From assembly GCF_000203935.1 (NCBI RefSeq), contig NC_008577.1, positions 310,001-374,000 on the forward strand: a stretch of 64,000 bases of DNA. The letters are read 5' to 3'. Each line of letters opens with the position of its first letter. The first letter of the stretch is position 1. Origin of the DNA: Shewanella sp. ANA-3 (GTDB taxonomy: Bacteria > Pseudomonadota > Gammaproteobacteria > Enterobacterales > Shewanellaceae). The notes under the pieces were generated by a model. It had not been told where the DNA came from. It was given only the letters and a program-made list of their open reading frames with translations, and searched no databases. Below are positions 4,727 through 64,000 of this stretch, piece after piece. Position numbers and translations under genes: made by a program.

Positions 4727-5051
4727 CTAAGTTTTTCCCGCATTTGGCGAAATCTATTCTCCATTAACGAATAACTCAGCTTGATTTGCGAAGCTGCGTT
4801 GCCGTTAAATCCCTAGATGATCAAAGCTTAATCTTGTTTCCATCGGTGTTTCAGTAGGTATTAGGTAAACTGAATACATTCGTCAGTGTTGGCCGAGCCT
4901 GAATCAATCGGATTAAGCAATCCACATGGGTGATGAACTAGGCGCCGTCATGGACAAACAGTGATAGAGATTATGGTAGCTTTGGCACGCCATCGACATC
5001 TAACTGTTTGTCTCATAAGATACAAACTTAGCCGATTTTTATGGAGGAGCC
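4727..5051. other. Intergenic region between modC and the PepSY gene, nothing recognised
   Basis: A 325-base gap without a convincing open frame, RNA gene or hairpin terminator. It must hold the promoter of the PepSY/two-component genes, but I cannot place a -35/-10 pair with confidence. A GGAGGAG sequence at its end is the ribosome binding site for the gene at 5052. Confidence 0.5.
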
Positions 5052-5573: not shown

Positions 5574-5619
5574 CACTGAGCATCACCGCTAAGTGAAGAC
5601 AGGGGAGCGCAGCATACAG

Positions 5620-6346: not shown

Positions 6347-7603
6347 GTGACTGTGATCATAGGCGCTTTGCTGTTTGCCCTTTATCGGCAACTCATTATC
6401 GAACAGCAGTACCAAGTGACTCAGTATCTTGAGTCAGAAACCCAACGCTATCAACAGCTTGCGCTTACAGTTGATCGCCGCAGTTTTGCGGCACAAATTC
6501 GTGCAGCCGATCCGCAGACGGCGCTCATCGCTTGGCGTAACAGTTATGACATGGTTGGTGCCTTAAGCTTTATGCCTGAAGGCATGCCCATGCTGCCGCA
6601 AACCCGGGATTTCCCGATTTTAACTGGTGGCCCTGATAAGCTGCATATCCTCACCGGCGGCCTAGTGATGACTCGCTATGGCCCTGTGCTCATCGCCACC
6701 CGTACCGATAACTTAGCCACCTTGATCGATAAATTTATCAGTGCGGCGGCCACGGCCGTGATGTTGACCATAGTGTTAACCTTAGCGTTGGGCTATTTGT
6801 TTTCTAAGGCGATTTTGCGCCGCTTAGTGCAGTACAATCGCTTGAGTGAGCAAATTGAGCGGGGGCATTACGACACGCGTCTGCCGCTCAGTTGGCGTCA
6901 GGACGAGTTCGATATGTTGGCGCTGCAGTTTAATAACGTGCTGGATATTCTTGAGAATAACCTGATGGCGGTGCGCGGGGTGACAGATAATATTGCGCAC
7001 GACTTGCGCACGCCCTTATCCCATATTCGCATCGGTCTTGAGGAGTTGGCGGCCAAATCCCCCGATGAAATCAGCGAAGGTTGCGCGATTTTGACCGAAG
7101 AGCTCGATCATTGTCTTGCGACCTTCGATGCCATGCTCTCGCTGACACGCATTGAGGAAGGGCAGCAAACCTTAGATTTGCAGGAGCTGAGTTTGGCGCA
7201 GCTATGTACCGATTTGTTGGACATGGCCGACGCGGTCGCCGAGTCGAATGAGCAAACCTTGAGTCTGTCGCTCCTATCGGATCATAAGATTTATGGTGAC
7301 AAGTACTTGTTGTTCCAAGCCTTATATAACTTGGTCGACAATGCGATGAAGTACTCAGGTCAAGGCGCTCGCATCGATATTATTCAATCCGGCGCTAAAA
7401 TTAAGATTTGCGATAACGGCCCAGGGATCCCCGATGACAGCAAGGAAAGAGTGTTTGAGCGTCTAGTGCGTCTCGACCCCAGCCGCCATTTGCAGGGCAC
7501 GGGTTTAGGATTATCTATGGTAAAAGCGATTATGTCGCGGCACAATGCGCAAATTACTCTTTCGGATAATCATCCCGGCCTAGTGGTGACCATTCAGTTT
7601 TAG
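6347..7603 (+). CDS. Membrane sensor histidine kinase, probable N-terminal extension
   Basis: A 418-residue kinase from the GTG at 6347. It has a membrane segment at each side of a short periplasmic domain (about residues 20-130), a HAMP-like linker after residue 155, the H-box DNIAHDLRTPL with His218, the N-box LYNLVDNAMKYSG, and the G-boxes DNGPGIP and GTGLGLSMV. With the GTG start the first membrane helix is cut short. The frame stays open upstream to 6263 and encodes a basic stretch plus more hydrophobic residues (SSVWRITIIFSTLV), with only an ATT (6293) available as start. The real protein is probably about 18 residues longer. Confidence 0.88.
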   Translation: MTVIIGALLFALYRQLIIEQQYQVTQYLESETQRYQQLALTVDRRSFAAQIRAADPQTALIAWRNSYDMVGALSFMPEGMPMLPQTRDFPILTGGPDKLHILTGGLVMTRYGPVLIATRTDNLATLIDKFISAAATAVMLTIVLTLALGYLFSKAILRRLVQYNRLSEQIERGHYDTRLPLSWRQDEFDMLALQFNNVLDILENNLMAVRGVTDNIAHDLRTPLSHIRIGLEELAAKSPDEISEGCAILTEELDHCLATFDAMLSLTRIEEGQQTLDLQELSLAQLCTDLLDMADAVAESNEQTLSLSLLSDHKIYGDKYLLFQALYNLVDNAMKYSGQGARIDIIQSGAKIKICDNGPGIPDDSKERVFERLVRLDPSRHLQGTGLGLSMVKAIMSRHNAQITLSDNHPGLVVTIQF

Positions 7604-7635
7604 GCCGATATCCGCGTGACACTGTTGAGAACCCC

Positions 7636-8325
7636 ATGTACCGAATCATAGCCGATGAGGCTGATTTTCTTGTTATTTCTAAATCGCCGAATGTGCATTT
7701 TCACAGCCAAGATGGCACTGCGGGTGTCGTGGCGCAGCTGGAGCAGGATTTAGGGATAAAACTCTTTGCCGTGCATCGGCTCGATACGCCCACCTCAGGG
7801 CTGTTACTGTTAGCCAAACATCCGGCGGCGGCTCGGCAGTTGACTGAGCTGTTTAGCGCCCATAGAGTGCAGAAATACTATCTTGCGCTCGCCAAAGGCA
7901 AGCCGAAAAAGAAGCAAGGCTGGGTGATTGGCGATATGGCCAAATCCCGCCGCAGCATGTTTAAGTTGCTTAGAACCAAAGAAAATCCTGCGATAACCCA
8001 ATTCTTCTCCACCAGTGTTGGCGAAGGGCTTAGGCTTTATTTACTCAAACCCCTCTCGGGGAAAACCCATCAGTTACGGGTCGCGCTTGCTAGCCTTGGG
8101 GTGCCGATTTTAGGCGATGCCCTATATGGCTCAGATGTCGCCGACCGCTGTTATCTGCACGCCTATTGTCTGCATTTTCGCTATCAACATGAGGAGGGTC
8201 ACTGGCAGGATTATGTGTATCTCGATACGCCTGAGCAGGGTGAGGCGTTTGCAGAGGAGACGGTAACCGCGGCATTGGCTGCGTGGCGTGAGCCAGACTC
8301 GCTCGACTGGCCTTCTAAGGATTAG
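7636..8325 (+). CDS. RluA-like RNA pseudouridine synthase (TIGR01621-type)
   Basis: A 229-residue cytoplasmic enzyme of the RluA/RsuA superfamily that isomerises uridine in RNA. The catalytic Asp is in HRLDTPTSGLLLLAK near residues 48-62. Further motifs are KYYLALAKG, LSGKTHQLRVAL and ILGDALYG. It lacks an S4 domain, as short single-domain members do. The RNA target cannot be read from sequence. It lies 32 bases after the kinase and may be co-transcribed with it. Confidence 0.88.
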   Translation: MYRIIADEADFLVISKSPNVHFHSQDGTAGVVAQLEQDLGIKLFAVHRLDTPTSGLLLLAKHPAAARQLTELFSAHRVQKYYLALAKGKPKKKQGWVIGDMAKSRRSMFKLLRTKENPAITQFFSTSVGEGLRLYLLKPLSGKTHQLRVALASLGVPILGDALYGSDVADRCYLHAYCLHFRYQHEEGHWQDYVYLDTPEQGEAFAEETVTAALAAWREPDSLDWPSKD

Positions 8326-50460: not shown

Positions 50461-51714
50461 TTATGTCGTTTTCCAGCGTTTAAAAATCAGTGAGGTGTTG
50501 ATGCCGCCAAAGGCGAAGTTATTGCTCATCACATAGTCAGTGTCGAGTGTACGTGGCTCGCCGCGAATGTAATCGAGTGCGGCACATTCTGGGTCGATAT
50601 TGTCGAGATTAAGCGTGGGGGCAAACCAGCCCGCATTCATCATTTCGATACTGACCCATGCCTCTAACGCGCCGCAGGCACCTAAGGTATGGCCTGTGTA
50701 GCTTTTCAGGGATGAAATCGGCATATCCGCACCAAATACTGCATGCGTTGCATGGGTTTCGGCAACGTCACCACGATCGGTGGCTGTGCCGTGGGCATTT
50801 ACATAGCCAATGGCATCGGGCGTGAGCGCCGCATCCTTAAGGGCTAAGCGAATGGCGATTTCCATGGTATCGCTATTGGGCTGAGTCACATGCTGACCAT
50901 CGGAGTTAGTGCCAAAACCGACGATCTCGGCGTAAATTTTCGCGCCGCGCGCCATGGCGTGTTCTAACTCTTCGAGTACCAGCGTACAAGCGCCTTCACC
51001 AATCACTAAACCGTCGCGATGGGCATCGAAGGGGCGAGGCGTTAACTCAGGGGTGGCATTTTTAGTGCTGGTGGCAAACAGGGTGTCGAATACCACGGCC
51101 TCGGTCGGGCAGAGTTCTTCACCGCCGCCCGCGAGCATTAAGGTCTGTTGCCCGTATTTGATGGCCTCATAGGCGTAACCTATGCCTTGGCTGCCCGAAG
51201 TACAGGCGCTGCTGGTGGTATGAATGCGTCCCTTAAGACCAAAGAATACCCCCACGTTTACCGCAGTGGTGTGTGCCATCATGCGGATATAGCTGGTGGC
51301 GGTGACGCCTGACATATCGCCATTTTTGAGCATATCGCCAAAGGCGACCAGCGGGTCAGTACTGCCGGTGGAAGAACCATAGGCAATCCCCATTTCCCCC
51401 GAGGTGACGATAGGATCGTCCAAGAGTCCAGCATCCATCAGCGCAAGTTCGCTGGCGCGAGTCGCCATAATCGAGACGCGTCCCATGGAGCGGATCTTTT
51501 TGCGGGAATAGTGGCTCGGCACCTCAAAGTCAGTAATAGGTGCAGCTAAGCGGGTGTTCAGCCCGTCATATTTATCCCATTCCGCCATCGTCACGACACA
51601 GTTTTTTTGTGCCTTAAGGCTGCTTGCGATACTCGGCCAGTCATGGCCTAGGGCACTGATGCCACCGATACCAGTAACGACGACTCGTCTGCCTAGGGGA
51701 TTGCGCTGCGTCAT
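50461..51714 (-). CDS. Beta-ketoacyl-ACP synthase, FabB/FabF-like
   Basis: A 417-residue condensing enzyme. Catalytic Cys171 (TTSSACTSGSQ), His in NAHGTATDRGD and His in SYTGHTLGACGALE complete the Cys-His-His triad. The protein extends a chain on an acyl carrier protein in type II fashion. It directly abuts the ketoreductase gene (no spacing), and a second ketosynthase lies further up. In aryl polyene systems such pairs can act as ketosynthase and chain-length partner, but both here keep the full triad. Confidence 0.93.
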   Translation of the reverse strand: MTQRNPLGRRVVVTGIGGISALGHDWPSIASSLKAQKNCVVTMAEWDKYDGLNTRLAAPITDFEVPSHYSRKKIRSMGRVSIMATRASELALMDAGLLDDPIVTSGEMGIAYGSSTGSTDPLVAFGDMLKNGDMSGVTATSYIRMMAHTTAVNVGVFFGLKGRIHTTSSACTSGSQGIGYAYEAIKYGQQTLMLAGGGEELCPTEAVVFDTLFATSTKNATPELTPRPFDAHRDGLVIGEGACTLVLEELEHAMARGAKIYAEIVGFGTNSDGQHVTQPNSDTMEIAIRLALKDAALTPDAIGYVNAHGTATDRGDVAETHATHAVFGADMPISSLKSYTGHTLGACGALEAWVSIEMMNAGWFAPTLNLDNIDPECAALDYIRGEPRTLDTDYVMSNNFAFGGINTSLIFKRWKTT

Positions 51715-52440
51715 TTAGATCATGCCTCCATTCACCGAAATCACTTGGCGCGTGATATAGGCAGCATCGTCCGACATTAAAAAAGCGGCTAAGGCGGCGA
51801 TTTCATTCGGTTTACCCATGCGTCGCATAGGCACTAACTGCTCGACCATATCCTTAGGAATATCCGCCACCATATCGGTTTCGATCAAACCTGGGGCGAT
51901 ACAGTTGACGGTGATTTTACGTTTGGCCAGCTCTAAGGACAGCGCCTTAGTGGCACCAATCAACCCGGCCTTAGAGGCGCTGTAGTTGACCTGTCCACGG
52001 TTGCCCGCAATGCCTGACACTGAGGCTAGAGTGATGATACGGCCACCCTTGCGGCCTTGTACCATGGGCATTACGCAGGGGTGAATGACATTGTAAAAAC
52101 CATCGAGGTTAGTGTGGATCACGCTGTCCCACTCGGCTTCACTCATCGCTGGGAAGGCATTGTCACGGTTGATGCCAGCATTGAGTATCACGCCATAATA
52201 GGCGCCATTGGCCTCGATATCGGCCTCAATGGCGGCTTTTACCGCGGCGCGGTCGGCAACATCAAACTTCAATAGGCTGACGTTCACCCCAAGGGCGCTA
52301 AGCTCTGCGGCGCTGGCATCGGCTGCGGCCTGATTGCTGTGATAATGCAGCGCGATATCGTAGCCCGCCGCGGCCAGTTTAAGGGCGATGGCTTTGCCAA
52401 TACCGCGGCTCGAACCTGTGACTAATACTCTGTTATTCAT
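51715..52440 (-). CDS. 3-oxoacyl-ACP reductase FabG-like (SDR)
   Basis: A 241-residue NADPH reductase. Motifs: VTGSSRGIGKAIALKL, NAGINRD, ASVSGIAGNRGQVNYSASKAG (Ser-Tyr-Lys), PGLIETDMV. It reduces the beta-keto group during polyene assembly. The 125 bases between it and the next gene contain no open frame long enough for an acyl carrier protein. Confidence 0.94.
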   Translation of the reverse strand: MNNRVLVTGSSRGIGKAIALKLAAAGYDIALHYHSNQAAADASAAELSALGVNVSLLKFDVADRAAVKAAIEADIEANGAYYGVILNAGINRDNAFPAMSEAEWDSVIHTNLDGFYNVIHPCVMPMVQGRKGGRIITLASVSGIAGNRGQVNYSASKAGLIGATKALSLELAKRKITVNCIAPGLIETDMVADIPKDMVEQLVPMRRMGKPNEIAALAAFLMSDDAAYITRQVISVNGGMI

Positions 52441-52565: not shown

Positions 52566-53105
52566 TTAAGCCTGACTGGAGGCGATATACGCTTGGGTGT
52601 CCTGGGGTTGGAACACGTTCACATTGGCCTCGGCCACGAGTTGTGGTGTTTGCTCCGCTCCCGCCTCGGGCAACAGATAAATCTGGCAATCGAATACCGC
52701 CAGTCCCGACTCTTCCTGATAGAGGCGTTTAACCCGAGTGCGGTAGCGGCGATTGAGTTCGTACTGCGCTGTGTGCAAGGCTAATTTACGCGATCCCAAT
52801 AAAAAACCTACTCGGATTTTATCGTGGCGCAGTTTGGCCTCGACGCCGGCGAGGGCCGCGATGCTCTGTGCCATATACTCGATACCCACATAATTGGGAA
52901 CGGCCTGACGTTGCTCGTCAAAATAAGCACTCAGAGGAGTGATCTGCACTTCGGTTTCGAGCGCATCCTGCTGATGGCGAATAATCTTATCAATCAAGAT
53001 CATTGGCGCGCGGTGCGGAATAAAATCGGCAATATTCTGCTCGGCTAATTGTTGCAGCCACATCGGCTCGGCGGGTGCCATTGCAGTGTCAGTAGAACTG
53101 GACAT
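52566..53105 (-). CDS. 3-hydroxyacyl-ACP dehydratase, hot-dog, ApeP-like
   Basis: A 179-residue hot-dog protein: IADFIPHRAPMILIDKIIRH and VGIEYMAQSIAALAGVEAKLRHDK are the two halves of the FabA/FabZ-type active site. It is longer at the C-terminus than FabZ (about 150). It removes water to set double bonds in the growing polyene. It starts five bases past the stop of the second ketosynthase gene. Confidence 0.88.
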   Translation of the reverse strand: MSSSTDTAMAPAEPMWLQQLAEQNIADFIPHRAPMILIDKIIRHQQDALETEVQITPLSAYFDEQRQAVPNYVGIEYMAQSIAALAGVEAKLRHDKIRVGFLLGSRKLALHTAQYELNRRYRTRVKRLYQEESGLAVFDCQIYLLPEAGAEQTPQLVAEANVNVFQPQDTQAYIASSQA

Positions 53106-53110
53106 AAATC

Positions 53111-54328
53111 TTAAGCCCCTTTACGGCAAAAAATCAGGCAGGCATTGCTGCCGCCAAAGGCGAAGGAGTTGCTCATCACATAGTTCAGCCTGCCATGCTC
53201 GGCACATTGTTTGGGCGCGACTAAGGCTATGCTGGGATCCTGTGGATCTGGCTGCCCATCAAACCTGTGGGGAGGCAGGGCAAGATGGTGATTATGGGGT
53301 GAGAGCAGTAAATAACAAAATGCGGCTTCAATCGCGCCCGCGGCACCTAAGGTATGGCCGACCAGCGGTTTGGTTGAGCTTGCGGGTGGCGGCGTGTCGC
53401 CAAATACCGAGGCTACGGCACGGCTTTCCATCGCATCATTTTTAGGCGTTGCTGTACCATGTAAGTTTATATAATCAATCTGTTGCGCCGATATCTGTGC
53501 ATCATCAAGCGCGGCCTGCATGGCGGCAATTGCCCCCGCACCTTCGGGATGTGGCGCCGACATATGGTGCGCATCGCTCGACTCGCCTATGCCTGCAAGC
53601 AAAACGCAGGCTTCATTTGCTGTGTTGTCTGTCGCTAAGGTCAGAGTAAATAGCGCGGCGCCTTCACCGATATTGATGCCATCGCGGTTGGCGCTGAAGG
53701 GGTTGCAATGTCCCTTGGAAACCGATTCTAAGGCGTGAAATCCGTTGACTGTCAGTTGGCACAGGCTGTCGATACCGCCGACGATCACCATATCGCACAG
53801 CTTGGCCTCGAGTAGGCGTTTGGCGCTGGCAAATACCTTGGCGCTAGAGGAGCAGGCGGTCGAAATGGTGTAGCAAGGGCCTTGGAGCTCAAATAACTGG
53901 CGTAGAAAATCGCTGGTGCTACCGAGTTCCTGCTGGAAATAATGGTAATCGGCGGGGAAGTGGCCGTGTTGATTGCGATAGGCCAAGGCGGCTTCGCCTT
54001 TCGAAATTCCCGAGGTGCTGGTGCCTAAGACCACGCCGATACGGTCGGCGCCAAACTCACCTTTGGCTTGCTCTACGGCATCGCGAATTTGCAGTGCGGC
54101 AGCAAGGAGCAACTGATTATTGCGACAATCGAATTGCGCCAGCGCGGCAGGTATCGTCGGTAACGACTCAGTGACGGGCGCAACCAGTGTCGACTCCTCA
54201 AATAGCAGGGTTTCACTGGTTTGCATGGCACTGGTATCGCCTGCAATCAAGCGGGCTAACACCTGCTCGGGCGTTTGCCCTAACGGGGTACACAATCCAA
54301 TTTGTGTAATGGCGACTCTGTTGTTCAT
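53111..54328 (-). CDS. Second beta-ketoacyl-ACP synthase
   Basis: A 405-residue condensing enzyme with Cys159 (ISTACSSSAK), His in NLHGTATPKND and His in LVGHTLGAAG. It shows only about a third likeness by eye to the other synthase, so a separate substrate or chain-length role is likely. The gap of 96 bases to the DUF3261 gene contains nothing else. An initiating or elongating role in the aryl polyene path is inferred. Confidence 0.92.
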   Translation of the reverse strand: MNNRVAITQIGLCTPLGQTPEQVLARLIAGDTSAMQTSETLLFEESTLVAPVTESLPTIPAALAQFDCRNNQLLLAAALQIRDAVEQAKGEFGADRIGVVLGTSTSGISKGEAALAYRNQHGHFPADYHYFQQELGSTSDFLRQLFELQGPCYTISTACSSSAKVFASAKRLLEAKLCDMVIVGGIDSLCQLTVNGFHALESVSKGHCNPFSANRDGINIGEGAALFTLTLATDNTANEACVLLAGIGESSDAHHMSAPHPEGAGAIAAMQAALDDAQISAQQIDYINLHGTATPKNDAMESRAVASVFGDTPPPASSTKPLVGHTLGAAGAIEAAFCYLLLSPHNHHLALPPHRFDGQPDPQDPSIALVAPKQCAEHGRLNYVMSNSFAFGGSNACLIFCRKGA

Positions 54329-54424: not shown

Positions 54425-55159
54425 TTAAATGGGTTGTATCTCTAACTCAAACTTTGCCTGTGGCATGGTCAAATTAATGTGTGCTTGCCAGAGGGCATCA
54501 TCGGTCTGTTGCTGATAACGGATTTGTATCACTTGAGTTTGGCTATCGCTGCGACTGATAAGCGTATCTTGGCTATAAAACTGGCGACAGGGAAGAGTGT
54601 CACACAGACCTGTCACTAACTCGCCGCCCTCTAAATGGCTTTTAATACTTTGCTCCGGCCAATAGATGAGTTGCATCATCGCCATCAGGTATTCGGCCTT
54701 AAACTCATCCCCTAGCAAGAGACTCTGTTCACTGCTGAGTGTATTCCCATCGTAAACCAAGGTAAACAATGCCTGCCCAAGGGGCGCGAGCCCGACCAGC
54801 GTCATCCGTTCCCCTTCGAGTTCGAGCTGGGTGAGTAGCTCGTGGGTGTTATCGCCCACCTTAATGCTCACCTTCTGACTAAAGGACTGGGGCGAGGATA
54901 CCCCAGCTTTGCTGTCACCTTGCTGACTATTGCCTTGAATTTTAGGGTCATTCGTCAGCGGCTTATTGAGCGGTTTATTCGTTGCAGGGCCAAAATCATG
55001 GGGCAGTGGCGCTAAGCAGTAACGCATATCTTTCGCCAAGCCAACACAGGTTTGCCGATAGAGCAGCTCGCTGCATCCCATCAAGCCTAGGCTGATAAGG
55101 AGCAGGGAAAAGGTTGCTATCGCTTTGGGGCGACCTTTGGCGTTAAGGCTTAAGCGCAT
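54425..55159 (-). CDS. DUF3261-family lipoprotein
   Basis: A 244-residue protein with lipobox LMGC and a low-complexity Asn/Lys/Pro linker (NKPLNKPLTNDPK). The C-terminal domain (about 90-244) fits DUF3261, which is found in aryl polyene and lipid-pigment clusters. Probably an outer-membrane lipoprotein receiving or anchoring the product. It follows the flavoprotein gene at four bases. Confidence 0.82.
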   Translation of the reverse strand: MRLSLNAKGRPKAIATFSLLLISLGLMGCSELLYRQTCVGLAKDMRYCLAPLPHDFGPATNKPLNKPLTNDPKIQGNSQQGDSKAGVSSPQSFSQKVSIKVGDNTHELLTQLELEGERMTLVGLAPLGQALFTLVYDGNTLSSEQSLLLGDEFKAEYLMAMMQLIYWPEQSIKSHLEGGELVTGLCDTLPCRQFYSQDTLISRSDSQTQVIQIRYQQQTDDALWQAHINLTMPQAKFELEIQPI

Positions 55160-55163
55160 CGAA

Positions 55164-56471
55164 TTACACCTCGGCTAATTCGCTAACGGCAGGTTCGGCG
55201 GTGAGTTCGGCTTCTTGCCGACATAGCTCGACCACCATATTGAGGCGTCGCTCGGAGTCTTTTACAAAGGGATTTTGCACATCCCAAGCATAGCCCGCCA
55301 AAATCGAGCAGATCATCTGTTTGATTTTAGGATTCGGATTTTCGTAAAAAATCACATCTTGGAAGCGACCATCGTACCAAGCCTGCACATAAGTGCGGAA
55401 GGTGTTCACCCCTTGCATTAACGGCGCAGAGTACTCGGCGGGCCAATCTACCGTGTTGCCATTAAGCTGTTTTAGCACGCATTTCGCCGCCATGGATGCC
55501 GACTGCATGGCAATGGTCACGCCCGATGAGAATACTGGATCGAGAAACTCGCCCGCGTTGCCTAGCAGGGCAAATTTGTCGGTGGCGAGGCGCGATACGT
55601 TGGCGGAATAGCCCTTGAGTGTCGCACAGGGCTGTGCGACCTTGGCATTGGCCAGTAATGCTTTCAGGCCGGGTTCTTCTTTGACTATGGTCAGTAGCTG
55701 CTGCTCTAAATCGCCTTCGAGACGCGCGAGTAATTGAGGCTCAGCCACGACGCCGAGTGAGCAGCGGCCGTTGCTGAAGGGAATTAACCAGTACCAAATA
55801 TCCTGATGCTGTGGGTGTACGCTAATTAAAATCTTGTTCCGGTCGAAGTCGGGATCGCTGATGTTATCTTCAACATGGGTGAAGATAGCGCTACGGGTCG
55901 GCAGTGAAGACGGCGTTTCGAGGTCGAGTAGGCGTGGTAATACTCGGCCAAAACCACTGGCATCGAGCACATATTTCGCCTCAACTTGGTACAGCTCGCC
56001 CTGCTCGTTACGCACAGTTAAACGTGGTGCGGCAGTTAAATCTATCGCCTCAACGGTTTCTCCATAACGGATCTCCACCCCAAAGCTTGCTGCGGTATCG
56101 GCAAGCAATTTGTCGAAGTTTGCCCGTTGCACTTGGAAGGTTGTGCCCGGTCCAGGGGTAAATTTGTCGGTAAAATCGAAGGTGGTATATACGCCATCGC
56201 GGCGGAAGGCGGCACCATTTTTATATTGGAATCCTGCTGCATTCAGCGCCTCTAACATGCCTGCTTCTTCAATAAATTGCATGCAGCAGGGTAGCAGACT
56301 CTCGCCGATAGAAAAGCGTGGAAAGTGTTGTTTTTCTAGCACTAATACGCGTTTGCCTTGCTTATGCAACAGACTAGCGGCAATCGAGCCCGAGGGGCCT
56401 GCGCCAATAATGGCCACATCGACGGAAAGGGAGTGAGACTGTGTGGAGCTTGCAGCGGTAGATGTGGACAT
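55164..56471 (-). CDS. Flavin-dependent halogenase-like flavoprotein
   Basis: A 435-residue FAD enzyme. The Rossmann motif is GAGPSGSIAASLL (residues 23-35), followed by HFPRFSIGESLLP. The WxWxIP signature of flavin-dependent halogenases is present as WYWLIP (residues 226-231). Lys84 in FQYKNGAAF aligns with the catalytic lysine of such halogenases. Variant-B halogenases that act on phenolic, carrier-bound substrates look like this. A plain monooxygenase or reductase of the same superfamily remains possible. The start codon directly follows the MMPL stop (TAA-ATG). Confidence 0.8.
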   Translation of the reverse strand: MSTSTAASSTQSHSLSVDVAIIGAGPSGSIAASLLHKQGKRVLVLEKQHFPRFSIGESLLPCCMQFIEEAGMLEALNAAGFQYKNGAAFRRDGVYTTFDFTDKFTPGPGTTFQVQRANFDKLLADTAASFGVEIRYGETVEAIDLTAAPRLTVRNEQGELYQVEAKYVLDASGFGRVLPRLLDLETPSSLPTRSAIFTHVEDNISDPDFDRNKILISVHPQHQDIWYWLIPFSNGRCSLGVVAEPQLLARLEGDLEQQLLTIVKEEPGLKALLANAKVAQPCATLKGYSANVSRLATDKFALLGNAGEFLDPVFSSGVTIAMQSASMAAKCVLKQLNGNTVDWPAEYSAPLMQGVNTFRTYVQAWYDGRFQDVIFYENPNPKIKQMICSILAGYAWDVQNPFVKDSERRLNMVVELCRQEAELTAEPAVSELAEV

Positions 56472-58991
56472 TTAAATAACATTCCTTGTAGGTATCGAGA
56501 CCTTGTTGGTGGTTAAAACCTGACTGGTGGTCAAAATCAATGGCGAAAGTACAAAGGTAAACCCTATGCCGAGGGATAGGGTCAATCCAAAATAATGAAT
56601 AGCTTGGGTTTGGCTAAAGGCGAGTAAGCCAAAGGCCAATAGGGTCGAGCAGGCGGACATAAACACCGCCATCATCACTGCCTTGCCATGTTGCGCTGCA
56701 GAGGCAAAGAACAAACTGTAATCTATCCCAATCCCGAAGACTAAAATCAGCGCCAGCGCATGAAACAAGCTTAAGGGCGAGCCGGCTAAGCCTAAAATGG
56801 CCAAGGTGAGTAAGGCCGCCAGCGCGGGTACGGCGACCACTAGGGCGGCTCTTTTAACGCCAAAACTCAGGCTAAATAGCAAGAGGGCGATAACGAGCGC
56901 CAGCCCCAATAACTTGAGCGTAAGCAGGCGATAATGCCCCATCACAGTGGAGATATCCGCGACTTTATCAATAAGCTGCACCAGCGGATCCTCGACAAAG
57001 CGTGCCTTGAGGGCCGCAATATCTTCAATACCGCCGAGCAGCACTATGGTGCCGTGGCTATCGTTCCCTAGGTTGGCATTATCGGGGCTGGTTGCTGACT
57101 CTGTTGAGTGCCCAAGCGGCGCGAATCCCTGTGGTGCAAGCCAGAGTGGGGCTAGCTGTTTGCCTAGGCCCAGTTCGAAAAAATCCGTCGGGGTGATATA
57201 GCTATCCTTGGCGGCAAGGTAGGTGGCAGAAAGCTCAGGTGCTAGGCCGTCATCTAGGCCAATGCTGTTTAGCACTGTGGTTAATTGCGACTGGTAAATC
57301 TTGCTCTGTAATTGATACGCCGCATCCTGCTTTTGCTTGCTCGGCAGATAACGGCTGAGGCTGATATAGTTGCCCAGCTCTTGCTGTTTAATGGCGGCAT
57401 CGAGCTGCGGACTGAGGGCTTCGAGCCGTTGCAGTAAGGCTTCTTCGCTGGGGGCGCGCACCAATAAAAACTGGTTATCTGTGCCGCCACTGAGTAATTT
57501 TCTGAGTTTGTCTTCAGGCTCAGTCACACTCGCAGGGCTTTGCTGTAAATGGCGAATATCATCGTCGACGTTAAGCTTGCTGATCCCCAATAGGCAGACT
57601 CCCGCGAGCACTAAGGCAAACAGACTCAATCCCCATGGCGAGATCAGTTTATTGGAGAATCCGGTGAGTTTCGCAAGATAGGCCTGAGCAAGGTTTAGCG
57701 GACGCTCTCCCGAAGGTAACTTGCTGCCCGCCAATAATGGATAGGCGAGCACTAACGTCAGGTAGGCGCCGAGTAAACCCGAGGCGCAGAAAATCGCTAC
57801 TTGCTGCATGCCAGGAAACGGCGCTAAACCGATACCGACATAGGCTAAGGCACTGGTGATAAAGGCCAGTGACACTGTGGGGAAGATATAGGCCACGGTC
57901 GCCTGCGCGCTACGCTGATGATCGCTTAACCGCTCACAGTAAAAATGGAAGCTGTAGTCGATGGCAATCCCAATCAGGCTGGTGCCAAAGACGAGAGTGA
58001 GTAAATGTAGCTCCCCGAACACGCTTAAGGTAAAAGTCACCGCCAGCAGCAGGCCGCTGCCGATTGTCACCATCGCCAGCAAGAGTGGCATCACGGAGCG
58101 AAACGCTAGCCAAACCAATAACACTACGCCAAGCAAAGAGGCGAGACCGAGGACAGAGATTTCACTCTTCGCGGTATTGGTAGCCTCGATGGCATGGAAC
58201 AGCGCGCCCGCCTGTAACACTTTAATGCTGGGGTATTGCGCGCTGACGGCATTCAGTGCCTGAGTCAGTGCCGCTTGCTGGCGTAATTGCGCATTAGGGT
58301 TAAAGGCGCTTTCGGTGCCCTTTGCCATCACAATGGCGGCCACGCCTTCACTGCTATTAACACCTTGTTTGGTATCAACACTTTGTGGATGAGCAAGTAA
58401 AATCCCTTGGTTGGCGCTCAGCTTCGAACTAGGCGCAAGGGCGAGCAAATTGTCGGGGAACAACAGCAAAGGATCTTGGGTCAAGAGTTGGCTATTGGCA
58501 TAACTAAAGGCGTTGTAGAGCTGCTGAGTGGCTGAGGCAATTAAGTGCTCGAGGCCATTATGGCTTAAGGCTTCGGTTTGCTCAGGTGTGAGCAGTTTAA
58601 AGCGATAGGGCAAATAAAATTGCCCTAGGGCTTCACCCATTTGCAGATCGGCGCTGCGAATATCGGTAAAGGCGGTGTTTTGAGTCTTAAGCTGCTCCAT
58701 CAGGAGTGTGGCCGCCGCAATCGCCTGAGGTTCATCCTTGGCAATCAGGGCGAGATACACTTGATCGGCGAGTGTCGATTCCACTTGTTCGAGGGCGCGC
58801 GCCGTGAGTGCGTCCTGCTGAAGATGGGGCAACATGGCGAGAATATCGCTTTGTACCTTTGCCCCATTTTGCCACAGTTGCAGCGTCCACAGGCTCGCCG
58901 CCAGCATCAAACACAACCAAATAGCGAAGCGCCATTTAGTTGAGGTTTGCATCAGGCTGTGGCCAATACGCGTGGCAATCTTGGGCGCCAT
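56472..58991 (-). CDS. MMPL/RND-family lipid exporter
   Basis: An 839-residue protein with the MMPL layout: one N-terminal helix, a large periplasmic domain (about 50-290), five helices, a second periplasmic domain (about 460-660), then six helices. Helix segments LALILVFGIGIDYSLFFASAA and FGTSLIGIAIDYSFHFYCERLS carry the Gly-Ile-Asp-Tyr-Ser motif of RND proton relays. It probably exports the aryl polyene lipid from the inner membrane. It is 9 bases past the LolA-like gene. Confidence 0.93.
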   Translation of the reverse strand: MAPKIATRIGHSLMQTSTKWRFAIWLCLMLAASLWTLQLWQNGAKVQSDILAMLPHLQQDALTARALEQVESTLADQVYLALIAKDEPQAIAAATLLMEQLKTQNTAFTDIRSADLQMGEALGQFYLPYRFKLLTPEQTEALSHNGLEHLIASATQQLYNAFSYANSQLLTQDPLLLFPDNLLALAPSSKLSANQGILLAHPQSVDTKQGVNSSEGVAAIVMAKGTESAFNPNAQLRQQAALTQALNAVSAQYPSIKVLQAGALFHAIEATNTAKSEISVLGLASLLGVVLLVWLAFRSVMPLLLAMVTIGSGLLLAVTFTLSVFGELHLLTLVFGTSLIGIAIDYSFHFYCERLSDHQRSAQATVAYIFPTVSLAFITSALAYVGIGLAPFPGMQQVAIFCASGLLGAYLTLVLAYPLLAGSKLPSGERPLNLAQAYLAKLTGFSNKLISPWGLSLFALVLAGVCLLGISKLNVDDDIRHLQQSPASVTEPEDKLRKLLSGGTDNQFLLVRAPSEEALLQRLEALSPQLDAAIKQQELGNYISLSRYLPSKQKQDAAYQLQSKIYQSQLTTVLNSIGLDDGLAPELSATYLAAKDSYITPTDFFELGLGKQLAPLWLAPQGFAPLGHSTESATSPDNANLGNDSHGTIVLLGGIEDIAALKARFVEDPLVQLIDKVADISTVMGHYRLLTLKLLGLALVIALLLFSLSFGVKRAALVVAVPALAALLTLAILGLAGSPLSLFHALALILVFGIGIDYSLFFASAAQHGKAVMMAVFMSACSTLLAFGLLAFSQTQAIHYFGLTLSLGIGFTFVLSPLILTTSQVLTTNKVSIPTRNVI

Positions 58992-59000
58992 GTTTCTGCC

Positions 59001-59843
59001 TTACTCTCTTGGACCAGTGTCTTTAGGCGTTGTCTGGCTGATGGCATATTGGGCTAACTCAGCCTCACTCAGTGGACCTTGGCGCAGCTCGCTAAAATCG
59101 ATACGGGTGATATCCTGCGGACTCACACTCGGATTGGCGCTGAGTAGCACTAAGGCGTGTAGCATATCGCTGCCTTCGAGCACCATATGGGCGATGGCCT
59201 TCTTCATCAGCGGATCTTTAGGGGTTAATCCCAACTGCCAGTTTGCGCTGCCTGAACTTGAGGCTTTTTGTGGCGACTTGTCTTGCGCCAACGGTTCTTG
59301 GGCTAAAAAGTGCAGTTCGAAGTTTGCACTTAAACCCGAAATATCGCCGCCCAGCATGGCATTTACTAGACTCGGTAATAAATCCCCCATGGCCGCCGCG
59401 CTTGCCGCATTATCGGCTTGGCTGATTTGCACTCGCCCTTGGCTATCTTTTTGGATCAGTTGCTTATCCTTTAAGATCAGCAAAGATTCGAAGGGGCTAA
59501 GTTGTTGCCAGATAAGCCCTTGTGCCTTGTCGAACACAAACTGGCCTTGGCTCACTAGGGGCTTTTTCAGCACTTTAAGCTGGCGTGATTGCACAAAGTG
59601 GCCGCGAACCGTCTCGCCAAGATTGAGCTTTTGGCTGAGGGCGAGTAATGCGGCGTTATCTGCGCCTTGGGCAAATAGCGTTTGGTACTGGCTTGCCCCT
59701 GTGAGGTTTGAACCAGCTAGGTTGGTATCGGCGAGGCTCTGCGCCTGTACCGAGCCAAGCAGCAGTGTGCAGCTTAATAGTAGACTTTGGCAGAACCATT
59801 GCGCCCACTTAGCTCGTGGCCAATTTGTAAAGAGGGCAATCAT
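59001..59843 (-). CDS. LolA-like periplasmic lipid carrier
   Basis: A 280-residue protein with a signal peptide (SLLLSCTLLLGSVQA). The middle portion (LNLGETVRGHFVQSRQLKVLKKPLVSQGQFVFDKAQGLIWQ, in parts) matches the LolA-like fold that carries lipids through the periplasm. Longer than LolA (about 200). Start ATG lies in the thioesterase stop (ATGA). Shuttling the polyene lipid to the outer membrane is inferred. Confidence 0.86.
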   Translation of the reverse strand: MIALFTNWPRAKWAQWFCQSLLLSCTLLLGSVQAQSLADTNLAGSNLTGASQYQTLFAQGADNAALLALSQKLNLGETVRGHFVQSRQLKVLKKPLVSQGQFVFDKAQGLIWQQLSPFESLLILKDKQLIQKDSQGRVQISQADNAASAAAMGDLLPSLVNAMLGGDISGLSANFELHFLAQEPLAQDKSPQKASSSGSANWQLGLTPKDPLMKKAIAHMVLEGSDMLHALVLLSANPSVSPQDITRIDFSELRQGPLSEAELAQYAISQTTPKDTGPRE

Positions 59844-60274
59844 TCGCTATCCGCCTTTGCAAGCAGCGGGGCGATTTTGCTGCGGAATATCTCTGGCGTC
59901 ACAAAGCACATTTCTTGGCTCGTCATATCCACCGCCGCCTGAATGGTATAACCCTTAGTAATACGCTCACCGGTTGCCGTATCACGGATTTGATAATTGA
60001 TTTTTAGGCGATTTTCCCACTCGACTAACTCGGCGCGCACGGTAATGTGTTGCTCGAAGGTGCTGGCTTTAACGTATTTGATCTGCAAATCAATAATCGG
60101 CCAAGCGTAGTTCGAGGCCTGCATTTGGCGATAGTTGTAGTCTAACTCGTCGAGCAATTTGCAGCGGGCAATCTCGAAATAACGCAGGTAATTACCATGC
60201 CAAGTGATCCCCATCGAATCCACATCGTGGAAGGGGATCTGCATGTCCATTTCTATGCTGAGCAAGGCTTTCAT
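59840..60274 (-). CDS. YbgC-type acyl-CoA/ACP thioesterase
   Basis: A 144-residue hot-dog thioesterase. ATG 60274 overlaps the ammonia-lyase stop (ATGA) with GGAAG upstream, so an earlier GTG is unlikely. The signature FHDVDSMGITWHGNYLRYFE includes the catalytic Asp. It may edit or release acyl chains from ACP. Confidence 0.9.
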   Translation of the reverse strand: MKALLSIEMDMQIPFHDVDSMGITWHGNYLRYFEIARCKLLDELDYNYRQMQASNYAWPIIDLQIKYVKASTFEQHITVRAELVEWENRLKINYQIRDTATGERITKGYTIQAAVDMTSQEMCFVTPEIFRSKIAPLLAKADSE

Positions 60275-61836
60275 CGGCACACTTCCCATTCGCCCGCTTG
60301 GATTTTCGCTACGGTTTGGCGCAGTACGGCTTCGAGCGGTCTGTCTTCGACTAATGGCTCAAAATCGGCGCGCACTTGGGCGAGCGTGGTGGCCAGCGAT
60401 GGCGTCAGCGAAGCTTCGTCTAACTCGTTCTGTGTGATGCGCAGACCAATGCCTTGGGTCATGGCGAGCAGGGCAGCAGCGGCGACTTGTTCTGTCAGCT
60501 GCAACACGCGCATACAGTCACGGGCGGCGATAGTACCCATGCTGACTTTATCTTGGTTATGGCATTCGGTTGAGCGAGAGAACACGCTCGCAGGCATAGT
60601 GTGTTTGAGCGCCTCTGCGGTCCATGCCGAAACCCCGATCTGTACCGCCTTAAAGCCATGGTTGATGGCACGGCGCGCGCCAGTAGAACCCGAAAGGTTA
60701 GCGGGTAAACCGTTGTTAAACTTAGGATCCATCACTAGTGCCATTTGGCGGTCGATAAGATCGGCGATGTTGGCCACAGTGTTTTTTAAGGAATCCATCG
60801 CAAAGGCAATGTGTCCACCGTAAAAATGGCCGCCGTGGAGAATATGCTCGCCTTCACCATCGACTATGGGGTTGTCGTTGGCGCTGTTGACTTCGGTTTC
60901 GATAAATTGGCGCATAAAGGGCAGTGCATCCTGCAATACGCCAATGATGTGCGGCGCGCAGCGGATGGAATATCTGTCCTGCAATCTGTCGGAATTGCGC
61001 GGGTGAACATGGTGGTTCAAATCTTCCCTAATCCAGGTCGCGATTTGGTTTTGTCCCGGATGGGGTTTGGCGGCAAACAGAATATCGTCGAAATGGTTCG
61101 AGTTACCTTTGAGGGTTAACGATGCCATGGCGGTAATGCGGCTGGCTAAACGCGCTAAATATTGTGCGCGATCAAAGGCTAAACAGGCTAATGCCGTCAT
61201 CACTGCCGTGCCATTCATCAGGGCTAAACCTTCCTTGGGGCGCAGCACATGGGGCGTGATGTTCAGCTCACGGTAAACCTCTTGGGTGGCTCTGCGCTCG
61301 CCGTTATAAATCACTTCGCGCTCGCCAACTAGCGCGGCGGCCAAGTAAGACAGTGGCGTTAAGTCACCGCTGGCACCGACCGAACCTTCCTCTGGGATCA
61401 CCGGCACTATATTGAGATTAAGCAAGGTTTCGATGCGTTTTAATAACTCATAGGTTACGCCGGATTTACCGATGGCGAGTGAGTTTAAACGGCAAGCCAT
61501 CACGGCGCGCGCCTGCATCACGCTCAAGACTTCGCCGAGGCCACAGCCATGGAAGCGGGATAAGTGCAGTGGCAGCTCATGGACTAAGTCGAGACTCACG
61601 TTGACAGTGCAAGAGTCGCCATAGCCGGTGGTGACGCCGTAGACCACACCTTCTTCGTGTAGCAGGCTGTCGATAAAGCGGGCGCCCTTTTGGATATAAG
61701 CTTGGTAATCGGCATCATCACAGAGTTTGACTTTAGCACCCTTAGCAACGGCGACGACTTGCTCTAATGTGAGTAACTGACGGCCAAATTCGATTGGCTG
61801 CTCAGTGGTTGTCGTGTGAGTAACTGCGTGGCTCAT
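60271..61836 (-). CDS. MIO-type aromatic amino-acid ammonia-lyase
   Basis: A 521-residue enzyme. The Ala155-Ser156-Gly157 triad (SVGASGDLT) forms the MIO group, and Tyr66 (VYGVTTGYG) is the catalytic Tyr. Further matches are the NSANDNP and QDKVSMGT segments. It removes ammonia from His, Tyr or Phe to give an aryl-acrylic acid. The residue pair that sets substrate choice aligns as Phe95-His96 (SRFHGCGLGE). That is neither Ser-His (HAL), His-Leu (TAL) nor Phe-Leu (PAL). As the cluster is not a histidine-use operon, it probably makes a cinnamate or coumarate starter. Confidence 0.9.
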   Translation of the reverse strand: MSHAVTHTTTTEQPIEFGRQLLTLEQVVAVAKGAKVKLCDDADYQAYIQKGARFIDSLLHEEGVVYGVTTGYGDSCTVNVSLDLVHELPLHLSRFHGCGLGEVLSVMQARAVMACRLNSLAIGKSGVTYELLKRIETLLNLNIVPVIPEEGSVGASGDLTPLSYLAAALVGEREVIYNGERRATQEVYRELNITPHVLRPKEGLALMNGTAVMTALACLAFDRAQYLARLASRITAMASLTLKGNSNHFDDILFAAKPHPGQNQIATWIREDLNHHVHPRNSDRLQDRYSIRCAPHIIGVLQDALPFMRQFIETEVNSANDNPIVDGEGEHILHGGHFYGGHIAFAMDSLKNTVANIADLIDRQMALVMDPKFNNGLPANLSGSTGARRAINHGFKAVQIGVSAWTAEALKHTMPASVFSRSTECHNQDKVSMGTIAARDCMRVLQLTEQVAAAALLAMTQGIGLRITQNELDEASLTPSLATTLAQVRADFEPLVEDRPLEAVLRQTVAKIQAGEWEVCR

Positions 61837-63665
61837 AAATGCTCTGTCCTGTCTGTAGTGCGCTCCAGCTCCGGGAGTGCTGCTGTCGTTTGTGGGGCGG
61901 ATGTCGCGCGGTTAACCTTGCTATCGTCCCGCCAAAAATCAAAAAAGTTAAACCATTGCAAGGGCTCACGCCTTGCATAGTGTTCGAGGCGCTCGCTGTA
62001 GTTATGCACCGCCTGTTGTAGTCGTTCCATTCGCCCTGCACGCGGGCCCTTGAGGCTGTTGCTAAAGTGCTCCAAATGCACGCGATATCGCCCTTGTTCG
62101 CGCAGGCAAAACATCAGATACACAGGGCAATCCAAGAGGCCGGCTAGAATAAATGGCCCCTGCGGGAAGGCTGCCTCTTCACCCATAAATGGCGCATATA
62201 CCACGCGTCCTTGGGAGTGGGATGAGGTTCTATCGCCAGCAATTACTACTAGCTCACCGTCTTCAATCTTTTGCTGTAGCAGCATAGAGGTGGCGGGATT
62301 AAGCTCGGTTACTTGGATCAAATTCAGCGTGCTATCGGGGTTTAATTGCTTGAGGACATTATTAAAGTTTTCGGCATGGCTGGTTAACACCATGACATTC
62401 ACTTTGACCTTGCGCTGGTGGATTGAAATCGCGCGGCACAGTTCGAGATTACCCAAGTGGGAGACCAGCAGCACGGCACCTTTGCCACTTTCTAGCTGAT
62501 CGGCTAGCACCTGGCGGTCGGGAAAATCCACTTGGCTTAATTGAATACGGTCGCACCAGGCATCGATTCTATCGAGCGCCGCATTACCAAAGGCGAGAAA
62601 GTGGTTCAGGCTATCGCGCCAGCCAATGGGGCGATTCAATTGCGGATGTTGCGGCTCGAGGCGTTGCACGCGGCGCAGAAAATCCAACGAGGCCTCGCGG
62701 CTGACTTTGCCCGTCAGGAAGAAATAGCAAATTACCGGATACATAATGGCGCGGCACAACCAATGGCCGCCGAATCGGTAGCTTTCGACTAACAGTTTTA
62801 TGCCCCAATAACTACCGCGCTCCTTCATCCCTGACCAATGGGTTGATGCTTTATCGGGCTGGAGCGATTGCGCTTTCTGTTTACGGCGCAGCAGTTGTGG
62901 CAGGCGCTTTAACATGCCAAAAAATAACCGGGTGTGCAGCTTAGTGATGCGCACATTGTCGGCCACACCTTGGAAGTGGCTGACGCCGTTTTCGGGATAA
63001 ATGACCTTAGTGGGGTGAAACAGAATTTCCACCCCTTGCCAGTAGAGTTTGACTAGGATTTCGATATCAAAATCCATCCGCTCTGTGAGGGCGTGCTGGC
63101 TTAAGAGACGCTCGGTGGCGGCTAAGGGATACACCCTAAATCCGCACATAGAATCTTGAATATCAAAGCTTAAGGTTTCGACCCATACCCAAAAGTGGGT
63201 GAGGTAACGCCCATAAAGTCGCCCCTTGGGGACGGACTCGTCGTACTCTGGCTTGCCCGAGATCAGCGCATCCGGCTTGGCCTGAGCCTTGGTGAGCATG
63301 GCGGGGATATCGCTCAAATTATGCTGGCCATCGGCATCGATCTGTAGCGCATGGGTAAAGCCATCGCGATACGCACGGCGAAGCCCCGTCATCACAGCCG
63401 CACCCTTACCACGGTTGTAGGGGTGTTGCAGCAGGGTCACCCAGTCGTGTTGCTCCGCCAAGGATTGCAGCAGATAGCGGGTCTCATCGTTGCTGCCATC
63501 GTCTATCAAATAGCAGGGCAGATTGAGGGCGGATAGCTCGGCCAAGGTCTGGGCGATCGCGGCGCTATGATTATAATTGGGGATCACCAGTGCCAGCTTG
63601 ATTGGTGCCGTGCCCATTAAATCACTCGGCGGGACTAGCATTGTGTCGCTCATACCGTCGCTCAC
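61833..63665 (-). CDS. Fused glycosyltransferase-2 and lysophospholipid acyltransferase
   Basis: A 610-residue fusion. Residues 20-245 are GT2: LALVIPNYNHS, LIDDGSND, and the metal site DAD110-112 (QIDADGQHN). Residues 285-590 are an LpxL/HtrB-type acyltransferase: LLVSHLGNLELC with His403 and Glu408 (HX4E), and later AGDRTS and AFPQGPFILA. It can thus both glycosylate and acylate a lipid acceptor, likely joining the polyene to a lipid head. The stop overlaps the lyase start by four bases. The true start may be at 63665 or the Met at residue 5. Confidence 0.88.
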   Translation of the reverse strand: MSDGMSDTMLVPPSDLMGTAPIKLALVIPNYNHSAAIAQTLAELSALNLPCYLIDDGSNDETRYLLQSLAEQHDWVTLLQHPYNRGKGAAVMTGLRRAYRDGFTHALQIDADGQHNLSDIPAMLTKAQAKPDALISGKPEYDESVPKGRLYGRYLTHFWVWVETLSFDIQDSMCGFRVYPLAATERLLSQHALTERMDFDIEILVKLYWQGVEILFHPTKVIYPENGVSHFQGVADNVRITKLHTRLFFGMLKRLPQLLRRKQKAQSLQPDKASTHWSGMKERGSYWGIKLLVESYRFGGHWLCRAIMYPVICYFFLTGKVSREASLDFLRRVQRLEPQHPQLNRPIGWRDSLNHFLAFGNAALDRIDAWCDRIQLSQVDFPDRQVLADQLESGKGAVLLVSHLGNLELCRAISIHQRKVKVNVMVLTSHAENFNNVLKQLNPDSTLNLIQVTELNPATSMLLQQKIEDGELVVIAGDRTSSHSQGRVVYAPFMGEEAAFPQGPFILAGLLDCPVYLMFCLREQGRYRVHLEHFSNSLKGPRAGRMERLQQAVHNYSERLEHYARREPLQWFNFFDFWRDDSKVNRATSAPQTTAALPELERTTDRTEHL

Positions 63666-64000
63666 AGGGACGCTCCATCATCTTGCTGGCTAGCAAAGCT
63701 GATACGCCCTGAGGCATAGCGGTGGTCGCCATCGCTGTAGGCAAAGGTTAACTTCTCTTTGGCGGCATTATGGCTAATGGCTAAGGTGACTTCCTGCCCC
63801 GGCAGAATAAGCTGTTGAAACTTTAGCACTTCTAAATTAGCGACCGCAGCGTTGTACCCAAAATGCTCGCAACCTAAGCGCACGGCCCAATCGAGTTGGG
63901 TTACGCCGGGGAGCACGGCTTGCTCGGGAAAATGGCCGTTAAAATATTCGAGATCGGCGGCGACAAAGAGGCGCAGTTCAATACTTTCTGGGCCGATCTC
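63662..64000 (-). CDS. ApeI-like 3-hydroxyacyl-ACP dehydratase, cut by window end
   Basis: The C-terminal 112 residues of a hot-dog protein whose start lies beyond the window. YFNGHFPEQAVLPGVTQLDWAVRLG contains the FabZ/ApeI-type His and Asp, and the tail carries AKEKLTFAYSDGDHRYASGRI. It overlaps the glycosyltransferase start by four bases. More cluster genes, including ACPs and an acyl-acid ligase, should lie to the right. Confidence 0.85.
   Translation of the reverse strand, partial: EIGPESIELRLFVAADLEYFNGHFPEQAVLPGVTQLDWAVRLGCEHFGYNAAVANLEVLKFQQLILPGQEVTLAISHNAAKEKLTFAYSDGDHRYASGRISFASQQDDGASL

Follow-up and report, generated by a model that had tools for sequence, protein, structure and literature searches.

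A halogenase-type flavoenzyme gene within an aryl polyene operon of Shewanella sp. ANA-3

Introduction

Among the described systems near to the locus analysed here is the ape cluster of Escherichia coli CFT073, which has the same core gene order according to its published gene list, contains the methyltransferase gene apeB and yields a methylated aryl polyene (APE) pigment (PMC8253772). Halogenase genes beside APE clusters have been published before (PMC3691225; arcA of Azoarcus in PMC3949708), xanthomonadins carry zero to two bromines (PMC3691225), flexirubins vary in methylation and chlorination (PMC3992019), and some such clusters yield halogen-free pigments. We analysed a stretch of 64,000 nucleotides from Shewanella sp. 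ANA-3 (NC_008577.1, positions 310,001 to 374,000; hereafter the window) that holds an operon for a yellow membrane pigment, carried by most Shewanella. Its gene order matches that of E. coli CFT073 with two additions, an aromatic amino acid lyase gene and a gene for a flavin-dependent halogenase-type oxidoreductase, which we call FDO. The E. coli cluster, in contrast, has neither an FDO-type gene nor an ammonia-lyase gene annotated, and the MMPL-family exporter and DUF3261 genes that flank FDO in the window are adjacent there. One clade of APE halogenase-type genes is delimited here, with its catalytic set kept across phyla. From sequence and structure modelling, FDO appears to be a tailoring enzyme of the APE head group, with ring halogenation the activity that we consider most probable, though far from assured.

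Sequence and predicted structure of FDO

FDO is a minus-strand open reading frame (ORF) of 435 amino acids occupying 56471-55164. A first-pass annotation, made from the sequence, had given its exact span and needed correction only in the strand, as the plus-strand reading of 55164-56471 is full of stops and was rejected. The landmarks which that annotation had picked out are all in place (Table 1): the Rossmann start with GAGPSG at residues 23-28, PRFSIGESLLP at residues 51-61, WYWLIP at residues 226-231, and Lys84 within FQYKNGAAF. In our alignment, Lys84 falls in the column of residue 76 of CndH and of the matching lysines of PltA and CmlS, which we take to be the catalytic lysines of these enzymes. 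A third family motif, unmentioned in the earlier annotation, is FLDPVFSSG at residues 309-317. GxGxxG, WxWxIP, Fx.Px.Sx.G and the active-site lysine are published halogenase markers (preprint PMC12871659, PMC7336383, PMC10696468); the lysine's role is described in PMC7336383 and PMC10696468, and WxWxIP has been proposed to block monooxygenation (PMC12871659, PMC10696468).

Profile and sequence searches agree with the earlier description of a flavin-dependent halogenase-like enzyme. The Pfam family Trp_halogenase (PF04820) matches FDO at 7.9e-22 and 78.2 bits, above its gathering score of 21. The top NCBIfam match is the CmlS equivalog (NF033113; 6.6e-45 and 153.6 bits, where the cut-off is 900), the GG-red-SF family of geranylgeranyl reductases (TIGR02032) scores 7.7e-34 and 117.7 bits, below its cut-off of 158.8, and QhpG, LodB and GoxB score 5.6e-29 to 3.1e-21, far below their cut-offs. 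A sequence search of the PDB returned 3nix first (367 bits), then ChlB4, Mpy16, CmlS and PltA (about 136-140 bits), followed by FasV, CndH, Bmp2, RadH, CtcP and PltM, with monooxygenases ranking lower. E-values ranged from 1e-39 to 5e-36 for ChlB4, Mpy16, CmlS, PltA, FasV, CndH and Bmp2, and FDO aligns with ChlB4, Mpy16 and PltA over nearly its whole length.

A structure model, for which 35 sequences (FDO itself plus proteins translated from named loci) served as input, reached a predicted local distance difference test (pLDDT) score of 90.2 and supports a fold of the flavin-dependent-halogenase type. Its nearest structure is 3nix from Cytophaga hutchinsonii (Z 57.3, 43% identity, 404 residues). 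Nine halogenase entries come next at Z 46.6-38.7, namely ChlB4, PltA, Mpy16, FasV, Bmp2 (twice), CndH, RadH and CmlS, whereas p-hydroxybenzoate hydroxylase (PHBH) and other monooxygenases rank below them at Z 36.5 or less. A PHBH-type assignment was rejected on this ranking, and a geranylgeranyl-reductase assignment on the ranking together with the sub-cut-off GG-red-SF score. The first-pass annotation had named a structural placement with geranylgeranyl reductase-like or monooxygenase members lacking a halide site as speaking against a halogenase; at the level of overall fold, this was not borne out.

The nearest relatives differ from FDO in informative ways. 3nix, titled 'flavoprotein/dehydrogenase', falls in the same clade and has the same motifs, including a GN pair to which we return below; unlike FDO, it stems from Bacteroidota and is known by its structural-genomics title alone. 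PltA, ChlB4 and Mpy16 (5dbj, 7fco, 5buk) share the near full-length alignment, WxWxIP, FxxPxxSSG, the lysine column and a similar fold (Z about 46.5), but they are only 26-28% identical and have GD instead of GN. These three enzymes act on carrier-protein-bound groups in other pathways. The variant halogenases CndH (3e1t) and CmlS (3i3l) resemble FDO in motifs and fold (Z 42.0 and 38.7) at 28-31% identity, with FDO far below the cut-off for CmlS equivalogs.

Conservation and phylogeny

Among 369 genomes of a gammaproteobacterial class sample, 59 match FDO at E <=1e-20. Seventeen of these, ANA-3 included, have a best match of at least 327 bits (43-100% identity) and make up group A; the others, at 178 bits or less, make up group B. 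Conservation was scored over 165 group-A loci, the window's own included, with one full-length ORF each at 40-100% identity; they come mostly from Shewanella, other gammaproteobacteria and Bacteroidota. This set excludes L034, whose group-A gene is split between two frames, and L117-L120, which repeat entries for other loci; L064, the larger locus of L034, was excluded from the tree. The residue at Lys84 is lysine in 165/165 orthologs, and Fx.Px.Sx.G (FxxPxxSxG) is likewise present in 165/165. WxWxIP occupies its column in 164, the exception (L237) having a gap-shifted WVWLIP, and GxGxxG is found in 164, the match at the exception (L084) stopping short of the motif. Together with the Pfam and PDB matches above, this conservation shows that the motif set is not there by chance. 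FDO is also under constraint, with a ratio of nonsynonymous to synonymous divergence (dN/dS) of 0.03-0.06 in four Shewanella pairs with dS <1; three further pairs gave 0.03-0.04 with dS saturated, and since the ratio saturates in more distant pairs we relied on the four alone.

In an IQ-TREE phylogeny of 69 rows, group A (41 rows, including 3nix) forms a single clade with support of 100/100, and 14 of the 19 group-B rows form another with 100/99. Seven distant Shewanella proteins served as outgroups, five of which have neither WxWxIP nor the lysine.

Distribution and linkage to the cluster

FDO matches at E <=1e-5 occur in 112 of 129 Shewanella genomes, and 111 of these hold real orthologs (in three pieces in G122, partial in G112), G096 having a weak match only. 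The glycosyltransferase/acyltransferase (GT/AT) fusion gene, which we used as the cluster marker, occurs in 116. Both are present in 110 genomes, the marker only in six, FDO only in one (G112, a 52%-complete genome) and neither in 12, so that FDO is found in 110/116 marker-bearing versus 1/13 marker-less genomes. Of a sample of 256 Vibrionaceae, 118 have FDO and 143 the marker; 116 carry both, 27 the marker without FDO and two FDO without the marker, which puts FDO in 116/143 marker-bearing versus 2/113 marker-less genomes. All of these are raw counts in which related genomes are counted separately. Loci were examined for 14 of the 27 marker-only Vibrionaceae. At one of them (L290), fragments of FDO are spread over several segments next to the cluster, and the 27 therefore include at least one broken copy.

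APE genes lie beside the group-A gene at 18/20 loci in one set and 17/20 in another. FDO does not adjoin the cluster everywhere: at L065, L066, L123, L124 and L130 its neighbours include no APE genes. The marker lies elsewhere in the genome for L123 (G541) and L130 (G507), has a weak partial match for L066 (G251), and was not found in G520 (L124) or G366 (L065, 55% complete). L123 and L124 share the genus code g274. A link between FDO and the ammonia-lyase was also considered but does not hold locus by locus, as each occurs without the other (FDO without a lyase match at L052, L053, L058, L063, L064 and L135; lyase without FDO at L272-L289 and L291).

The six Shewanella genomes with the marker but no FDO bear most directly on its role. 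Three of their loci (L272, L274, L277) hold the other query-set genes, and in each the MMPL and DUF3261 genes share a few bases of overlap; a HEAT-type gene was not seen in these three, having either no match or a position beyond the stretch, and the stretch of L272 stops before the end of the last ketosynthase gene. At L273 and L275, matches in other genes are broken. L276 (G058) holds a distinct, Vibrio-like ape cluster with ApeA, the ApeB methyltransferase and the lyase and no group-A gene, which was perhaps acquired. An apparent lack of the first acyl carrier protein (ACP1) in FDO-less clusters proved to be an artefact of overlap filtering, since L272-L275 and L277 all have it (75-83% identity). 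Since the polyene genes persist without FDO in three Shewanella loci, FDO looks like a tailoring gene rather than a core one, and like a dispensable step.

A scan of named genomes led by the 3nix sequence extended to Bacteroidota; described here are the best 80 of at least 584 confirmed stretches, a sample nearest to 3nix. At least three APE-type genes besides FDO are present in 54 of the 80; 50 of the 80 stretches exceed 20 kb and the rest are truncated. All eight named Chitinophaga isolates among them (L193, L196, L200, L202, L206, L210, L219, L221) have lyase, ketoreductase, ketosynthase, methyltransferase and FDO together.

Genes similar to apeB recur near FDO. At 17 group-A gammaproteobacterial loci a methyltransferase with 50-57% identity to E. 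coli ApeB is present, usually adjoining FDO, and at Vibrio-type loci the pair is oriented opposite to the main operon; there is no such match at L177, and the methyltransferase at L063 is of another kind with lower similarity. In the named-genome sample, 38 of the best 80 of at least 584 loci have a match. Two Shewanella loci (L069, L070) carry the ApeB-like gene inside the cluster, and 88 of the 129 Shewanella genomes carry it somewhere, two of them without the APE marker. It is present in 84 and absent in 26 of the 110 with marker and FDO, and present in two (G055, G058) and absent in four of the six with the marker alone. Neither ApeB nor ApeA has a match in the window or in the adjoining stretch of the same genome (L050). 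It would nevertheless be false to say that the strain lacks an ApeB-type methyltransferase, for a gene with 55% identity to E. coli ApeB lies about 1.5 Mb from the operon (G000:C1:1822002-1823048; L298, about 6997-8070), with no other APE gene of the query set within 15 kb around it.

Possible functions of FDO

In the pathway that we envisage, the lyase would deaminate tyrosine to 4-coumarate, the AMP-ligase would load this starter onto an ACP, and the set of ketosynthases, ketoreductase and dehydratases would elongate it to the polyene. A flavin reductase encoded elsewhere would supply reduced flavin adenine dinucleotide (FAD) to FDO, where reduced FAD, O2 and Cl- or Br- would give hypohalous acid (HOX). 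This may travel through a tunnel at FLDPVFSSG to Lys84, which would hand it to an electron-rich ring carbon ortho to the hydroxyl, on either a carrier-bound or a free aryl intermediate. Halogenation could be constant or limited to some conditions. In favour of this reading are the halogenase markers and fold, the constraint on FDO, its co-occurrence with the cluster marker, its absence from three otherwise whole Shewanella clusters and from the annotated cluster of E. coli CFT073, and the group-B genes that take the slot of the group-A gene at L100 and L101.

Several observations weigh against ring halogenation. Both PltM and CtcP are absent among the 50 rows of the structural ranking by Z. 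By this measure, then, some halogenases do not outrank the hydroxylases, though the Foldseek order places both ahead of PHBH. Residues 304-305 (window 55562-55557) are GN in 165/165 group-A rows, while GD takes their place in 5/5 aligned PDB halogenases and 19/19 group-B rows; GN is a family signature of group A. In the tree, the five proven halogenases split over two groups, the deep forks are weak and some branches, chiefly those of outgroups, are very long; group A, a clade in its own right, is not nested within the proven halogenases with any firm support. Two of the seven outgroups (L261 in G096, L263 in G088) have both WxWxIP and the lysine, so the motifs alone are insufficient to settle the chemistry. 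Both are distant flavoproteins of two Shewanella genomes, with about 26% identity.

Pigment chemistry adds to these points. A flavin reductase of G864 is identical to PDB 1vfr in 218/218 residues, and those of G858 and G832 in 217/218; we take the source of 1vfr to be Vibrio fischeri, and by sequence G864 and G858 look like Aliivibrio fischeri. Their loci (L175 and L174, respectively) hold FDO and an ApeB-like methyltransferase gene beside the ape operon. The V. fischeri pigment is not known to be halogenated. Motif-bearing orthologs likewise sit in the flexirubin-type clusters of the eight named Chitinophaga isolates (best 80 of at least 584), and the flexirubin of C. pinensis is given as C43H54O4, with no halogen (PMC3992019); C. 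pinensis DSM 2588 itself falls outside the best 80. Azoarcus arcA is listed as a halogenase, yet arcuflavin is C41H52O4 (PMC3949708). Among literature titles and abstracts, with most subscription papers outside this coverage, we found no halogenated Shewanella APE and no study of FDO. Either FDO-type enzymes do not halogenate in the cell, or what they make is formed only under some conditions or has escaped notice. Because orthologs sit in clusters of Chitinophaga, with a halogen-free pigment published for C. pinensis, and of V. fischeri-like genomes, with no halogenation known for the V. fischeri pigment, we put a halogenated Shewanella pigment forward as a hypothesis; with motifs and fold in favour and pigment chemistry so far not showing it, our preference for ring halogenation is a modest one.

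FDO could instead have a changed chemistry on a halogenase-like scaffold. Reduced or peroxy-flavin would then drive a step other than halogenation on the head group or the chain, for instance hydroxylation of the ring or some other oxidation, which would make FDO comparable to two kinds of protein in its superfamily, QhpG and the LodB/GoxB maturases. The retention of FDO in V. fischeri-like genomes, with no halogenation known for the V. fischeri pigment, would fit this, and so would the family-wide GN signature and the matches to the QhpG, LodB and GoxB families, remote as these are. The halogen-free flexirubin published for C. pinensis (PMC3992019), whose genus keeps FDO, points the same way. 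However, WxWxIP, the proposed block to monooxygenation, and Lys84 are kept throughout group A, and five of the seven outgroups have neither, L261 and L263 making the motifs less than decisive. Nor does a changed chemistry explain the C. pinensis pigment any better, because its formula shows no obvious extra ring oxygen. As two outgroups share the motifs, we raised the weight of this explanation, and regard it as possible if rather unlikely. The title of 3nix might also be read as pointing to a redox enzyme of the geranylgeranyl-reductase or dehydrogenase type with the polyene chain as its substrate. This reading draws on the GG-red-SF match; the match stays below its cut-off, the ten nearest PDB entries are 3nix and halogenases, and FDO is absent from the E. 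coli cluster and from otherwise whole Shewanella clusters, so that we consider such a role very improbable.

Ring halogenation itself includes the case of a true halogenase that has been silent or conditional in cultures so far, owing to low bromide, to an ApeB-type methyltransferase competing for the same ortho positions, or to minor species being overlooked. The varying methylation and chlorination of flexirubins (PMC3992019) and the zero to two bromines of xanthomonadins (PMC3691225) are consistent with it, as are the ApeB-like genes that share the locus at the 17 gammaproteobacterial loci and at 38 of the best 80 loci of the named-genome scan. In ANA-3 such a gene is present elsewhere in the genome, though none lies in the window's operon. 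Against this case, the results section of PMC3992019 reports no search for minor halogenated species, and we treat it as a tentative option. More broadly, group A may be one ancient APE-specific halogenase family with an invariant GN, common to most Shewanella, nearly half of the sampled Vibrionaceae and many flexirubin-type clusters of Bacteroidota, that makes overlooked ring-halogenated APEs and in some lineages competes with ApeB-type methylation at the same positions. This we judge doubtful, having lowered our estimate because the ANA-3 genome has a methyltransferase of its own; if true, halogenated membrane pigments would be a common trait of marine gammaproteobacteria. Should FDO halogenate phenols, 3nix would already provide its family of halogenases with a crystal structure, and Shewanella clusters naturally with and without FDO, the latter in genomes such as G011, G053 and G127, offer ready-made pairs for comparison by mass spectrometry.

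The surrounding operon

FDO belongs to a single minus-strand gene run between the exporter and DUF3261 genes (Table 1), which confirms the APE-type setting described in the first-pass annotation. Beyond the window, L050 completes the ApeI-like dehydratase gene and adds genes for an AMP-ligase, a COG4648-type protein, two ACPs, an acyltransferase and a ketosynthase-like protein. One operon thereby contains the ape-type set of ketosynthase, ketoreductase, ApeP and ApeI dehydratases, ACPs, AMP-ligase, GT/AT, LolA and MMPL. The ApeB-like gene of this genome lies far away, whereas apeB is inside the E. coli CFT073 cluster.

Table 1 Features of FDO and of the operon within the window
Feature	Position	Strand	Evidence
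Ketosynthase (ApeR-like)	50461..51714	-	ORF reading; homologs at other APE loci
FabG-like ketoreductase (ApeQ-like)	51715..52440	-	ORF reading; homologs at other APE loci
ApeP-like dehydratase	52566..53105	-	profile match
Ketosynthase (ApeO-like)	53111..54328	-	profile matches
DUF3261 gene (ApeN-like position)	54425..55159	-	profile match
FDO, flavin-dependent halogenase-type oxidoreductase, 435 aa (P0001)	55164..56471	-	ORF, profile, PDB and structure comparisons
GNAGEFLDPVFSSG, residues 304-317, Fx.Px.Sx.G motif; GN versus GD of five aligned PDB halogenases	55521..55562	-	
WYWLIP, residues 226-231, WxWxIP motif	55779..55796	-	
Lys84 codon, lysine column of CndH, PltA and CmlS	56220..56222	-	alignment
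FPRFSIGESLLP, residues 50-61, conserved stretch past the Rossmann start	56289..56324	-	
GAGPSG, residues 23-28, FAD-binding GxGxxG motif	56388..56405	-	
MMPL/RND-type exporter (ApeM-like)	56472..58991	-	profile matches
LolA-like protein (ApeL-like)	59001..59843	-	profile matches
4HBT thioesterase (ApeK-like)	59840..60289	-	profile matches
Aromatic amino acid lyase, tyrosine-ammonia-lyase-like, below all NCBIfam cut-offs; 4-coumarate starter presumed	60271..61836	-	profile matches
GT2 glycosyltransferase/acyltransferase fusion (ApeJ-like), cluster marker	61833..63665	-	profile matches
ApeI-like dehydratase, most of gene; 129 aa in L050, past the window end	63662..64000	-	

An insertion element, about 1.3 kb long, IS3-type by its layout and with ORFs carrying helix-turn-helix (HTH) and rve domains (L050, about 4581-5879; G000:C1, about 375581-376879), lies a short way beyond the window's right end and splits the COG4648-type (ApeG-like) gene, which lies upstream of FDO in the same gene run. 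The gene is whole (182 aa) in three close relatives (G113, G054, G084), with a 3-base flank overlap at the empty site, and no inverted repeats of at least 14 bases were found around the element in L050 4500-6000. Because the element interrupts the operon, the pigment of the sequenced strain may be reduced or absent.

Group B and other related loci

Group-B and xanthomonadin-type genes resemble FDO in being halogenase-type genes by APE clusters, at about 29-34% identity, but group B forms its separate clade, is closer to CndH (226 bits) and carries HPRFHIGESLLP and GD signatures. At least three other APE-type genes are present in 13 of the 19 group-B loci, and three of the other six are contigs below 7 kb. 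L102, a xanthomonadin-like cluster, has a chorismatase-type gene adjoining, and xanthomonadin clusters have such a gene in XanB2 (PMC3949708). The arcA gene of Azoarcus and the Xanthomonas genes may also be of the group-B kind.

A few further loci are worth recording. In the Bacteroidota stretches L191 and L198 a second, partial FDO match lies about 3-4 kb from the first and may be a duplicate. L231 and L242 have a group-A gene with APE genes in metagenome-assembled genomes labelled Oligoflexus and Proteobacteria; L231 falls among Bacteroidota in the tree, pointing to transfer or mis-binning. At L100 and L101, a group-B gene lies on the opposite strand beside an ape-type ketosynthase-like gene, the slot that the group-A gene occupies in Vibrio, and one kind of halogenase-type gene has apparently replaced the other there.

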